64,000 nucleotides of DNA from a virus: positions 1 to 64,000 of the IMG/VR virus record IMGVR_UViG_3300010150_000016; one strand, 5' to 3'. The notes beneath the pieces were generated by a model. The model did not search any database, was not told where the DNA came from, and saw only the letters and a program-made list of their open reading frames with translations. Shown here piece by piece: positions 9,380 to 63,677 of the stretch (positions are counted from its first letter, which is position 1; each line of letters opens with the position of its first letter). Position numbers and translations under genes: made by a program.

Positions 9380-11020
9380 ATGGCTTACGGAGATTGGAGC
9401 ACAAAAACTCAACAACTCCTCACAGGTACACCAGGAACACAGATTTCTTATGGTGATGTTAGGGCGGCAGTAGGTAATACTTCCGCCTCAATTTCTGCAT
9501 CTGAGATGCATCGAGTCACAGATCTTGATGCACCATATGATTTCAATACAGGCAAATATGCCACATCATCTTCTCCTCATCTACCATATGTGTTGGATGC
9601 AACTGAAAATGTAGGTGTTGGTACGAGTGGAGCTATCACACCTCAAGATCTTAGAGGTATTATTGATGAATATGTAATTGAGCAGGCAGCTAACTCTGAA
9701 GAAGAAAACTTTAGTGTTACTGATTTAAATAGTCCATCAACTCCTAGTATCAATGCACAATGGAATGGAAATCTTAACAGAAATATATCAAAGTATCTAA
9801 GGATAAAAGGTAGAATTGTTAGTACCAGTGTTGCATCTCCTGCTGTTGTTGCTAATGATGCATCATCAAATCTAAACATCTATGTAAATAATGCACCACC
9901 ATCATATGGTGTTTATTCTGCCGGGGGAAATGCACAGGGACAACCTGGCGGTCATGCGATTGAAATATCTAATCCTGGTGCTCCTGCAATTCGTAAAGTA
10001 TTTGTAGAATGCGAAGGATCAGACTCTCGCATTTATGCTGGTGGTGGTGGTGGCAAAACTGGATCTAACGGATCTCCTGGATCTAATGGATCCGGTGCAT
10101 CTTCTGGATCTCCTGGTAGTCCTGGATCACCCGGTGGTTCAGGTGGTAGTGGATCACCCGGTGGTCGTGGTGGAAATGGTAGTCCTGGATCACCCGGTAG
10201 TGGCGGTCAGCAGAGACATGGGTATCAGCAAAGATCCGGTAAGCAAAATAGAAATAGTAACAGAGATAGAAGATCTAGAAGAAAACGGTATGGTGGTTGG
10301 CCCCGTAGTAGAAGGGGACCAAAACAGGAGAGGCAAGGTTATCAGAGCAGAAATACATTTCAGGCAAGAAACAGTATGAGACATCGGCATCATTGCTCCG
10401 GTGGATCCGGTGGTGGCGGTGGATCAGGCGGTGGCGGTGGATCCGGCGGCGGTGGCGGCGGCGGTGGTTCAGGTGGTGGCGGTGGTTCAGGTGGTCCTTC
10501 AGGATACAATGGAACTGGCGGTGGCGGCGGCTATCGTGGGGTAGGTGCTCCCGGTCGCGGTTGGAACTATAAGACGGGCAATATCACTGGACAACCTGGC
10601 ACTCCTGGACAACCTGGCACCCCTGGTGGTGGTGGCGGTCCCGGTGGATCAGGTGGTGGCGGCGGAGGCGGTCAACCTGGTGGTAGTGGATCTCCTGGAT
10701 CTAGTGGAACTCCTGGTGGCCGTGGTGGTGGTGCATCATGTGGTGCTGGTACTCCTGGAACTCCTGGAACCCCTGGTGGTCGTGGTGGTCGTGGAACACC
10801 CGGTGGTAGCGGTCAACCTGGTCAACCCGGTCAACCTGGAACCCCTGGAAGAGCTGGTACTCCTGGACAAGGTGGCCAACCCGGTCAACCCGGTGGATCC
10901 GGTGGTGATTGGGGTCAACCTGCATTTGGTGGCGCTGCTGGTGGTCAAGGTGGTCGCGCTGTTAAGGGTAGCAAATATGAAGTGATTCCTAATAATGGGG
11001 ATATTAAAGTAGTTTACTGA
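9380..11020 (+). CDS. Collagen-like, glycine-rich tail-fibre protein
   Basis: 546 aa; starts 11 nt after the previous stop, with AAGGA before the ATG. Residues 1-220 form a normal beta-rich phage domain (MAYGDWSTKTQQLL; SYGVYSAGGNAQGQPGGHAIEI). From about residue 222 it becomes Gly/Ser/Pro-rich. Residues about 403-510 contain runs of Gly-X-Pro (GTPGQPGTPGG, GTPGTPGTPGG, QPGQPGQPGTPG), with proline in the collagen Y position. An Arg/Gln-rich island (about 278-339) interrupts the glycine-rich part. The protein ends in a short non-repetitive tail (VKGSKYEVIPNNGDIKVVY). Collagen-like phage proteins form trimeric fibres; this is probably an adhesin. The next gene encodes a hydroxylase-like enzyme that may act on it. 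Confidence 0.85.
   Translation: MAYGDWSTKTQQLLTGTPGTQISYGDVRAAVGNTSASISASEMHRVTDLDAPYDFNTGKYATSSSPHLPYVLDATENVGVGTSGAITPQDLRGIIDEYVIEQAANSEEENFSVTDLNSPSTPSINAQWNGNLNRNISKYLRIKGRIVSTSVASPAVVANDASSNLNIYVNNAPPSYGVYSAGGNAQGQPGGHAIEISNPGAPAIRKVFVECEGSDSRIYAGGGGGKTGSNGSPGSNGSGASSGSPGSPGSPGGSGGSGSPGGRGGNGSPGSPGSGGQQRHGYQQRSGKQNRNSNRDRRSRRKRYGGWPRSRRGPKQERQGYQSRNTFQARNSMRHRHHCSGGSGGGGGSGGGGGSGGGGGGGGSGGGGGSGGPSGYNGTGGGGGYRGVGAPGRGWNYKTGNITGQPGTPGQPGTPGGGGGPGGSGGGGGGGQPGGSGSPGSSGTPGGRGGGASCGAGTPGTPGTPGGRGGRGTPGGSGQPGQPGQPGTPGRAGTPGQGGQPGQPGGSGGDWGQPAFGGAAGGQGGRAVKGSKYEVIPNNGDIKVVY
10589..10910 (+). repeat. Gly-X-Pro collagen-like coding repeat
   Basis: Imperfect 9- and 18-nt coding repeats (GGA-CAA-CCT, GGC-ACT-CCT, GGA-ACC-CCT) encode Gly-Gln-Pro and Gly-Thr-Pro triplets interspersed with poly-Gly. 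Repeats like this readily change copy number by slippage or recombination, so length variation between strains is expected. Confidence 0.75.
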
Positions 11021-11027
11021 TTTTATT

Positions 11028-11630
11028 ATGTCAATTTATCGCATATCTCCCTCACCAAACTTTGGTACGGGGGAGATATTATATGAGTCTTGGGAAGATG
11101 GATTTACATCTGAAGAATGTGATAAGATTATTACTTATGGAGAGTCATTAAATCCTCATGACTCAGTTGTAGGGCAGGATGAAGAATCGCACGAAATAGA
11201 AACAAGTATTAGAAAGTCAAAGAACTCATGGATTGAGTTGAATGATGATACTGAGTGGATATATGACAGACTGGGTAATATTCTTAGATGTATGAATGGT
11301 ATGCATTGGAGATTTGATATTCATGGATTTCATGAACATCTACAATATACTGTTTACAATGATAATGATTCATTTTATCGTTGGCATGTAGATAATATGG
11401 TTCTGGGTGAAATGCCACCCAGAAAGTTAAGTATGTCGGTGCAACTATCTGATCCTGATGATTATGATGGTGGTGAGTTGCAGTTACATAATGGTGTCAT
11501 TCAAACAGCAGCAGATGATAGAGGCATAGTTACGATGTTTCCTAGCTATGTGGTTCATCGTGTGACACCTGTCACAAGGGGCACTAGACGCTCTCTAGTG
11601 GTCTGGGCAAACGGTCCTGGGTTCAGATGA
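11028..11630 (+). CDS. 2-oxoglutarate/Fe(II)-dependent oxygenase, prolyl-4-hydroxylase-like
   Basis: 200 aa, starting 7 nt after the collagen-like gene. It has the double-stranded beta-helix signature: His120-Val-Asp122 (FYRWHVDN), distal His177 (VVHRVTPV) as third Fe ligand, and Arg187 ten residues later to bind 2-oxoglutarate. DDYDGGELQL precedes the distal histidine, as in PKHD/P4H-type enzymes. Such enzymes hydroxylate prolines or other residues using O2, 2-oxoglutarate and ascorbate. 2OG oxygenases are common in cyanophages and their substrates are mostly unknown. The adjacent Gly-X-Pro fibre is the obvious candidate substrate, which is inference. The gene lies in the same direction with no promoter between, so co-transcription is likely. 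Confidence 0.88.
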   Translation: MSIYRISPSPNFGTGEILYESWEDGFTSEECDKIITYGESLNPHDSVVGQDEESHEIETSIRKSKNSWIELNDDTEWIYDRLGNILRCMNGMHWRFDIHGFHEHLQYTVYNDNDSFYRWHVDNMVLGEMPPRKLSMSVQLSDPDDYDGGELQLHNGVIQTAADDRGIVTMFPSYVVHRVTPVTRGTRRSLVVWANGPGFR

Positions 11631-13083: not shown

Positions 13084-14499
13084 ATGAGTAGGAAAATCGC
13101 TGTTATCGGTGCAGGTGCAGATGCTGTAGCGACTGTTACACAACTCATTGCTCGTAGAGATAATTCAGATAGCATTTTTCAGGATGACGAAATTACATGG
13201 ATACGGGATTGCTCGCATAAAATTGACAACTTCGGAGTGCAAGTCAATACACTTTGGCTTACTGTTATTGCTACCAACACCACAATTAGTACACTCGACT
13301 TTCATAAAAGATTTGATGCGACTCAAAAACTTGGGTTAAAGTTTATTGGGTTTGGTAATCGTACTGATAAAAACTTCTTCGTTATGTTTGATCCTACTGA
13401 GGTATCAATGCATATTGATGAAGGTAAGTTTGTTGACTTCTTTTGGGATAATGTACGAAATCAACACTTTAACCTTAACTTAGTTGATAAGAGAGTTAAA
13501 GATGTTACATTTGATGAGGATAGTGCATATATCGACGGTGAGGAGTTTGATTTCGTCGTTGACTGTGTAAGAGGTGGACTGTGGGATAAGACTTCATTTA
13601 AAGATGCACTATTCAATCCATCTGATACAAAATTAACTGTTAATCGTAAGATTCCTGGTGACTGGGACTACAGCGCATTTATTGCATGTGAGCATGGATA
13701 TTTGACTGGTATTCCTACACAAGATGCACAAACATGGATCTATTCATATGATCATGAGATTACAACTGAAGAAGAGGCAGTAGAAGATTTTAATAAGCAT
13801 TGCGCTGTTAAAAAGCATTGCTCATATAAGAAGACTGATTCTGATCATAAAGTATCTGAGTATTGCATTCATAGTAATAAAATGTATGCAAGATGTGGTC
13901 GTGCTCTAGGTATGAACGATGATTTAATTGGGTTTAATAGTTATGTTGAGACTGATGTTGGCGAAGCATTAGGAGAATTTATATTTGGTGATAATGATAG
14001 TCCATGCAATAACTTACAGCGTCTAGAAATTGAAGATAGGTGGAGAGATCACCAGATCGATGCTGCTGCTTTTATGGCATTCTATCTACAATTTGGTACA
14101 CAGTATCGTCAATCTGATTTCTGGATTAACGCTAGAGAAACGGCATGTAGGTTGCTTGAGGATAAAGATCTACACTCAACTGAGCGTAGATTAGTATATG
14201 AGAAGATGGAAGAAGTTCCTGTTGAAGAGAACATTAGACTTGATTATTTTAGACATCAAGCACAATCAGAGGATAAAACTTATCTGCGTCAAAGAATGAC
14301 AGATGAGTCAGATGAACCATATAGAATGTTAGGTCCCTACCAAAGTTTCTGTCAAGCAGTATATGGTTTAGGTGCTCCATATGCAGATAAATATCCTCTC
14401 ATGTCACCATTGTGGGAACCTAGTGAGAAATTTGGTGAAATTGTGTTAGATTCCATGATGGATGGACACTTTAAGAAGCGGACCAAAAAGAAGTCATGA
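13084..14499 (+). CDS. Tryptophan-halogenase-like FAD protein
   Basis: 471 aa. The N-terminal beta-strand and nucleotide-binding turn KIAVIGAGADAVATV fit the FAD-binding start of flavin-dependent tryptophan halogenases (PrnA/RebH family), and the length is close to the family norm (about 500-540). GLKFIGF places Lys86 where these enzymes have their catalytic lysine. The diagnostic GWxWxIP motif appears only as HGYLTGIP: the Ile-Pro end is kept but both tryptophans are replaced. Halogenase-like genes are known in cyanophages without proven substrate. Halogenation is therefore uncertain; another flavin-dependent reaction is possible. A late-type box lies 23 nt upstream. Confidence 0.75.
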   Translation: MSRKIAVIGAGADAVATVTQLIARRDNSDSIFQDDEITWIRDCSHKIDNFGVQVNTLWLTVIATNTTISTLDFHKRFDATQKLGLKFIGFGNRTDKNFFVMFDPTEVSMHIDEGKFVDFFWDNVRNQHFNLNLVDKRVKDVTFDEDSAYIDGEEFDFVVDCVRGGLWDKTSFKDALFNPSDTKLTVNRKIPGDWDYSAFIACEHGYLTGIPTQDAQTWIYSYDHEITTEEEAVEDFNKHCAVKKHCSYKKTDSDHKVSEYCIHSNKMYARCGRALGMNDDLIGFNSYVETDVGEALGEFIFGDNDSPCNNLQRLEIEDRWRDHQIDAAAFMAFYLQFGTQYRQSDFWINARETACRLLEDKDLHSTERRLVYEKMEEVPVEENIRLDYFRHQAQSEDKTYLRQRMTDESDEPYRMLGPYQSFCQAVYGLGAPYADKYPLMSPLWEPSEKFGEIVLDSMMDGHFKKRTKKKS

Positions 14500-63039: not shown

Positions 63040-63363
63040 ATGAAGCTATTTTTTGCACTACTAGCTACACTCTTTTTTGCTGCGCCTGCATGGGCAGTAG
63101 ATGTCTCAATGGGTCATGATGGCAACCTAGTATTTGAACCGAATGAGATTACAATCTCTGCAGGTGATACAGTTCATTTTGTCAATGAAGCACTACCTCC
63201 TCACAATATTATTGTAGAAGGTCGTGCAGATCTTTCCAGAGAAGCATTACTGTTTGCTCCTGGAGAAACACAGGATGTTGTATTTGCAGACAAAGGGGAC
63301 TATAATTTCTTCTGTGGACCTCACCAGGGCGCAGGGATGACTGGCACAATTCATGTAAACTAA
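63040..63363 (+). CDS. petE: Plastocyanin
   Basis: 107 aa. Signal peptide at residues 1-19 (MKLFFALLATLFFAAPAWA) directs it to the thylakoid lumen. Mature blue-copper fold with ligands His55 (PPHN), Cys92, His95 and Met100 (FFCGPHQGAGM). It carries electrons from cytochrome b6f to photosystem I. A host-derived auxiliary metabolic gene known in several cyanomyoviruses. The phage form is short and acidic; all four Cu ligands are intact, so it should be functional. The petF ATG is adjacent to its stop codon. Confidence 0.95.
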   Translation: MKLFFALLATLFFAAPAWAVDVSMGHDGNLVFEPNEITISAGDTVHFVNEALPPHNIIVEGRADLSREALLFAPGETQDVVFADKGDYNFFCGPHQGAGMTGTIHVN

Positions 63364-63657
63364 ATGACTTATTCAATCAAAGTTAAACTTTCAGACGGCA
63401 CAGAATCTTCTTTTGAATGTTCTCCTGATGATTATATTTTAGACGCTGCTGAGGAAGCAGGTGTTGATCTTCCTTACTCTTGTCGTGCTGGTGCCTGTTC
63501 TTCATGTGCGGGAAAAATTCTAGAAGGTACAGTCAATCAAGAAGAACAATCTTTTCTAGATGATGATCAAATGGAGGCAGGATTTGCACTTTTATGCGTG
63601 TCATATCCCACTTCTGATTGTGTAGTCAAAGCAGAGGCAGAGGAAGAAATTTATTAA
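63364..63657 (+). CDS. petF: Plant-type [2Fe-2S] ferredoxin
   Basis: 97 aa, normal length. Cluster ligands Cys40, Cys45, Cys48 and Cys78 ([19 protein letters not shown]) are all present. It accepts electrons from photosystem I and feeds FNR, nitrogen assimilation and, in cyanophages, bilin reductases. It begins right after the petE stop, so the two form one unit spanning photosystem I on both donor and acceptor sides. Confidence 0.95.
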
Positions 63658-63677
63658 AATAATCAGTGCCACACAGA

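Follow-up and report, generated by a model that had tools for sequence, protein, structure and literature searches.

A virus precedent for pairing collagen with a hydroxylase is mimivirus, whose L230 lysyl hydroxylase/glycosyltransferase is reported together with viral collagen (Luther 2011, as cited in the available part of PMC8968730). The same part of that source cites a prolyl 4-hydroxylase (P4H) of Bacillus anthracis that hydroxylates (PPG)n peptides with a preference for the Y position of the triplet (Schnicker and Dey). For bacteriophages, the collagen-like tail proteins EPclA-D of Escherichia coli O157 prophages have an X position favoured by Pro and no prolyl hydroxylase, and bacteria and viruses are said to lack both a preference for Pro in Y and a prolyl hydroxylase (PMC3368898). 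For marine phages, the accessible text of a 2026 phage annotation paper presents numerous PHROG 61 oxygenases that resemble EGLN3 and leaves their substrate unnamed (PMC12774648). In the literature searched, with subscription papers and preprints outside it, we met no account of a phage fibre linked to a hydroxylase of its own.

The fibre and oxygenase genes

We analysed a window of 64,000 nucleotides (the whole stretch of DNA under study), which covers nearly all of a virus record of 64,371 bases. Because it encodes gp6- and gp8-like baseplate proteins together with a plastocyanin and a 2Fe-2S ferredoxin, the source phage is, judging by gene content, a T4-like cyanophage; the plastocyanin and ferredoxin genes, a cyanophage marker, are adjacent at 63040–63660. 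Upstream of the gene pair studied here are genes for a 1744-aa tail-fibre protein that has a chaperone domain and for a tail protein of 908 aa; a DUF6267 gene comes next after the pair. The window also holds a tryptophan-halogenase-like flavoprotein gene at 13084–14499, which matches PHROG 2928 at 5e-16 and scores slightly under the cut-off of Pfam Trp_halogenase. Related genes (prnA) are present in other marine phages. The features of the pair are as follows.

9380–11020 (+): collagen-like, Gly-rich fibre gene, open reading frame of 546 aa
9380–10039 (+): fibre residues 1-220, non-repetitive N-terminal region, 56-100% identical across 25 IMG/VR loci
10040–10219 (+): residues 221-280, collagen-like tract 1, Gly-x-y with GSP repeats, the Gly at every third residue invariant
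10220–10393 (+): residues 281-338, Arg/Gln-rich insert with the conserved pattern QQR..YQ.R...RRKRYGGWPRSRRG, right before the invariant Cys339
10394–10549 (+): residues 339-390, Cys339 and a GGx-rich tract typical of polyglycine-II helices
10550–10591 (+): residues 391-404, linker with the invariant R393-G394-W395
10592–10909 (+): residues 405-510, collagen-like tract 2, about 34 triplets, GTP/GQP-rich, interrupted at the invariant Cys454
10910–11017 (+): residues 511-546, C-terminal strands, RAV.G.KYEVIPN.GDIKVIY
11028–11630 (+): 2OG-Fe(II) oxygenase of prolyl/PKHD-hydroxylase type, 200 aa, assigned from profile and predicted-fold matches
11385–11393 (+): His120-x-Asp122, iron ligands, invariant in 20 aligned relatives
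11556–11558 (+): His177, iron ligand, invariant in 20 aligned relatives
11586–11588 (+): Arg187, 2-oxoglutarate anchor, invariant in 20 aligned relatives

Counting four or more Gly-x-y triplets in a row as a tract, we found 68 triplets in six runs in the fibre, the longest of 18, which are the tandem triplets expected of a collagen-like protein. The first-pass annotation had described Gly-x-Pro tracts with Pro in the Y position, and this was borne out, with 25 prolines in Y and none in X within the tracts; the x residue of these 25 triplets is T in 9, S in 8 and Q in 8, and a second Gly occurs in 35 of the 68 triplets. The motif GxPG occurs 26 times in residues 221-546, well above what composition accounts for, since 20,000 shuffles of the same residues averaged 3.2 and never exceeded 12; GPxG occurs there once. 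Across an alignment of 18 relatives Gly is near-invariant at every third position and Cys339 and Cys454 are invariant, while conservation of the Y-Pro columns is moderate (0.73 versus 0.62 for X residues in the 18 aligned fibres of the window family). The N-terminal region, in which the AlphaFold2 (AF2) model has beta strands, probably combines an attachment part with a beta-rich domain that spans roughly residues 137-210.

The Arg/Gln-rich insert (about 58 aa, 10220–10393) splits the Gly-rich body and is strongly basic; going by its composition, it could be a nucleic-acid- or polysaccharide-binding loop. A frameshift at this Arg-rich stretch was considered and ruled out, as the same frame is kept in all relatives, and the retention of the segment in all of them indicates that the reading frame of the fibre is real.

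The oxygenase gene begins 7 nt past the fibre gene on the same strand with H120, D122, H177 and R187 intact, in agreement with the first-pass annotation. Its product matches PF13640 at 6.8e-14 (53.1 bits by hmmscan, above the gathering cut-off of 27) and PHROG 61 at 8.8e-38 (131.7 bits), and a profile search against the PDB gave 3dkq (2.9e-15), PiuC (7.4e-15) and the P4H of the Chlorella virus PBCV-1 (5c5t, 7.8e-9), with further matches to the B. anthracis P4H (3itq/5hv0) and Chlamydomonas P4H-1. Its AF2 model (pLDDT 83.6) has a predicted double-stranded beta-helix fold near the prolyl hydroxylases, with P. putida P4H (4iw3, E 2.1e-11), PiuC and PHD2 as top Foldseek matches. The Pfam, PHROG, NCBIfam, PDB-profile and fold comparisons thus concur on a 2OG-Fe(II) oxygenase of prolyl/PKHD-hydroxylase type. 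Because it scores under all NCBIfam curated cut-offs (57.3 bits for PRK05467, PiuC/YbiX, where the cut-off is 143, and still less for the others), we did not place it in the PiuC/YbiX equivalog. A predicted fold and a motif do not reveal whether a hydroxylase of this kind acts on Pro, Asn, Arg or Lys.

Pairing of the two genes in other phages

Searching IMG/VR with the fibre N-terminus only, we obtained 25 loci (56-100% identical), all of which carry 26-49 Gly-x-Pro triplets with an oxygenase 4-10 nt downstream. As these loci form one lineage, gene order alone could account for the pairing among them. A further group, L041-L047, was found via the oxygenase search and has an unrelated fibre N-terminus, other neighbours and 20-25 Gly-x-Pro triplets immediately upstream. 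Cultured phage records gave no match to the N-terminus of the window fibre nor to the ends of two further Y-type fibres used as probes, so that these searches found no isolate with the module; no Gly-x-Pro fibre lies near the oxygenase of the cultured phage CRP-810 or of the 735-kb phage LR756501.

To sample collagen-like phage genes independently of the enzyme, we scanned IMG/VR by DNA patterns for Gly-x-Pro repeats, Gly-Pro-x repeats and Pro-free GGx repeats, blind to the oxygenase. Open reading frames were then called, oxygenases were detected with a profile grown from the window enzyme, and a hit was an oxygenase on the same strand within 1.5 kb, with at least 1.5 kb of downstream sequence required. 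Families were defined by N-terminal similarity alone, the cut-offs of the survey were of our choosing, and positives and negatives were counted symmetrically. Two 926-aa apparent Y-type reading frames (in L083 and L101) were judged to be broken-up frames and were dropped by a tract-length filter.

Among the matches listed, an oxygenase lies within 1.5 kb of 31/34 Y-Pro genes (17/20 families), compared with 22/93 X-Pro, mixed and Pro-free Gly-rich genes (18/67 families), a difference with Fisher p 3.5e-12 by gene and 4.5e-6 by family. The tract-length filter and later scans were decided on after the result of the first survey version, in which, before that filter and the last two scans, the counts were 6/8 families compared with 15/58 (each comparison at p about 0.03). 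Where 1.5 kb was available on both sides, the figures among the matches listed were 18/19 Y-Pro genes and 9/10 families versus 9/50 and 8/35. As a control, the remaining genes of these loci gave 9/53 among the matches listed; oxygenase linkage showed a dose trend with the number of Y prolines, again among the matches listed. When only loci that hold an oxygenase were compared, contact within 50 nt was found for 29/38 Y-Pro genes versus 5/37 of the rest (p 4e-8, among the matches listed). The 44 non-redundant Y-type fibres among the matches listed have 1687 prolines in Y and 50 in X. The three Y-Pro genes without a reachable oxygenase among the matches listed are those of L069 and L557, both upstream-truncated, and of L170, a short bacterial-type lipoprotein. 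The upstream-truncated collagen-like reading frame of L069 (1–6900) encodes at least 2299 aa with 370 Gly-x-Pro triplets in GIPGIS repeats, and no oxygenase is present in the 5.7 kb downstream of it.

The co-occurrence across related phages that the first-pass annotation had proposed as a check, and whose absence it had named as refuting, is therefore seen in 25/25 close relatives and in 31/34 genes of the blind survey among the matches listed. The simplest account of an association of Pro in Y, and not in X, with a prolyl-hydroxylase-like enzyme, and one that we consider probable, is that the enzyme hydroxylates the Y prolines of the fibre encoded by the same phage.

Fibre structure

The first-pass annotation had also suggested that the two genes form a fibre-hydroxylating system that could stabilise a collagen triple helix or create a receptor-binding surface. 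The enzyme–substrate link in that proposal has gained from co-occurrence beyond one locus; the triple helix is doubtful, in view of the GGx stretches and a gp38 fold match. An alternative with the same enzyme–substrate pair makes the Gly-rich body an antiparallel polyglycine-II (PGII) sandwich like that of gp38, with the hydroxyprolines on an outer face of the lattice; we regard this as somewhat probable and lean to such a lattice over the triple helix. PGII sandwich bodies are known from gp38, the tip adhesin of the phages S16 and PP01, and also from the snow-flea antifreeze protein. By fold, the fibre model, which is of low confidence, matches a single PDB entry, the receptor-binding domain of PP01 gp38 (9v85, E 0.015, prob 0.89), a domain that contains a PGII sandwich according to the available text of PMC12892980. 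The model bridges every third residue between segments that are far apart, although its mean pLDDT is 46 and a single-chain prediction is unable to form a trimer. The GGx-rich tract at residues 340-390 and the 35/68 triplets with a second Gly fit inner PGII strands and are ill-suited to a triple helix. In distant relatives the N-terminus (AGSxTFNxxGTFxxP) and the C-terminus (YxVxVxxGGxITISWxxQ) both carry beta strands, which suggests that the two ends meet.

Some observations point instead to collagen. Fibre residues 405-509 align with collagen alpha chains in the PDB profile search, and several relatives (L024, L529, L614, L041 and L182) pass the cut-off of Pfam Collagen (PF01391); the window fibre itself has no Pfam match and so none to that family. 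In gp38-like adhesins Gly-rich motifs alternate with variable loops; the window fibre has GGx tracts and non-repeat inserts, but its Arg-rich insert is conserved and not hypervariable. Taking together the long GGx stretches, the end strands in distant relatives and gp38 as the sole PDB fold match, we find PGII helices at least as likely as a collagen triple helix.

Oxygenase clades and alternative targets

In a tree of 145 non-redundant phage oxygenases, all of which have R or K at the equivalent of Arg187, the Y-linked label needs 11 changes versus a shuffled mean of 35. The clade of the window oxygenase has 29 members, 24 of them Y-linked, and 38/40 non-redundant Y-linked enzymes retain the iron ligands and the 2OG anchor. 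The X-linked oxygenases form a separate clade; X-Pro (GPx) collagen-like phage genes sometimes adjoin a 2OG oxygenase of this clade (L183, L190, L205, L213, L290, L582 and L305), which could act on a different residue. In many Y-type loci (L526, L350, L616, L635, L529, L614 and L041-L047) the type A enzyme of the window clade is accompanied by a type-B oxygenase (FIGxYxNVFPxxFC), often on the far side of the fibre gene, which suggests two modified positions or residues; the window locus has type A only.

It is also conceivable, but unlikely in our estimate, that the target of the oxygenase is not the fibre but, for example, host EF-Tu, a ribosomal protein or a different virion protein, and that the position of the gene reflects conserved gene order only. 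The best structural match is the P4H–EF-Tu complex of P. putida (4iw3), in which the P4H acts on EF-Tu, and the oxygenase family is widespread in bacteria that have no fibre. Enzymes 32-40% identical to that of the window occur in cultured cyanophages, in clusters away from Gly-x-Pro fibres, and about a quarter of the other Gly-rich/X-Pro genes also have an oxygenase within 1.5 kb (among the matches listed). In GTDB genomes, only 2 of 60 related loci have a Gly-x-Pro fibre, and both are phage-contig-like sequences binned into MAGs; the chromosomal bacterial homologues in the GTDB loci examined have no Gly-rich neighbour and no fibre link. Chromosomal alphaproteobacterial homologues (L645-L648 and L651) adjoin a short reading frame of ~200 aa that resembles a second oxygenase of the same size, e.g. 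MSELKTRPVVIGEHKVAVWKDAFTP. Against another target stands the recurrence of the pairing with unrelated fibre N-termini and neighbourhoods and its specificity to Y-Pro, for which the gene order of a single lineage is inadequate.

That the enzyme modifies a non-Pro residue of the fibre, such as an Asn, Gln, Thr or Arg at the x position or within the Arg-rich insert, appears quite improbable. In Gly-x-Pro, x is mostly N, T, Q or S, the enzymes of PF13640 are diverse, and with a type-B oxygenase in many Y-type loci two residues may be modified. However, it is Pro in Y that the oxygenase tracks; Gly-rich fibres devoid of Pro show no such link, and x differs freely from one family to the next (N, T, Q, S, L, A). 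That an ordinary Gly-rich tail fibre merely lies by chance beside a common cyanophage 2OG oxygenase is highly improbable and is disfavoured by the survey: PHROG 61 oxygenases are indeed very common in marine phages (available text of PMC12774648), but the pairing holds in 25/25 close relatives, in 31/34 survey genes (among the matches listed) and against three internal controls.

Proposed modification

Hydroxylation of the fibre's own prolines would make the two genes a fibre-modification module. The basis for this reading is the presence of both genes, the intact catalytic residues, the prolyl-hydroxylase-like predicted fold, the strict preference for Pro in Y over X and the pairing across phage families that is specific to Y-Pro. 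During infection, the 200-aa oxygenase would hydroxylate the Y proline in Gly-x-Pro-Gly (x = T, S, Q or N). Prolyl 4-hydroxylases bind an extended left-handed strand of PPII/PGII type, and the tract chain is expected to be such a strand. Hydroxyprolines at regular spacing would result, and these would stiffen the tract, provide surface hydroxyls for binding, or both. We infer the reaction, its regiochemistry and the effect of the modification on stiffness, folding or binding.

More tentatively, marine phages may widely carry a self-contained module of this kind, made up of a Gly-x-Pro adhesin, probably a PGII lattice, and one or two dedicated prolyl-hydroxylase-type oxygenases. Such phages would have hydroxyproline-decorated receptor-binding fibres, with maturation tied to oxygen, iron and host 2-oxoglutarate.

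Comparison with known systems

The pairing described here recurs in many unrelated marine phages and suggests a modification of their own fibres akin to that of animal collagen. It defines a class of phage fibres with a preference for Pro in Y (1687 to 50, among the matches listed) that is genetically tied to a hydroxylase-type enzyme. If the proposed reaction is correct, collagen-style post-translational modification would extend to phages of bacteria, some of the very numerous 2OG oxygenases of marine phages, which have no assigned function, would gain a role, and small single-gene hydroxylases with matched substrates would be at hand for producing hydroxylated repeat proteins in bacteria.

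By analogy, the PBCV-1 P4H and the mimivirus lysyl hydroxylase may be seen as the virus precedents of the module. The former is, like the window oxygenase, a virus-encoded enzyme of prolyl-4-hydroxylase type, with a eukaryotic alga as host; we know of no demonstrated partner fibre gene for it. Mimivirus has genes for a collagen as well as for the oxygenase by which that collagen is hydroxylated, but the residue is Lys and the host eukaryotic, whereas the association here is specific to Y-Pro and found in phages of bacteria. B. anthracis provides a bacterial P4H together with collagen-like proteins of BclA type, but these are cellular and form no phage fibre module. The PKHD-type hydroxylase PiuC/YbiX is the family nearest to the window oxygenase by sequence, though not an equivalog; to our knowledge, the substrate of PiuC itself is not settled. 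Adhesins of the T2-type gp38 class (S16, PP01) resemble the window fibre in a Gly-rich body with loops, with a weak fold match (E 0.015, low-confidence model), and the available text of PMC12892980 describes neither tandem Gly-x-Pro repeats nor a linked oxygenase for them. The prophage proteins EPclA-D are, like the fibre studied here, collagen-like proteins of phages, and with its prolines in Y and its linked oxygenase the present module is the opposite case.
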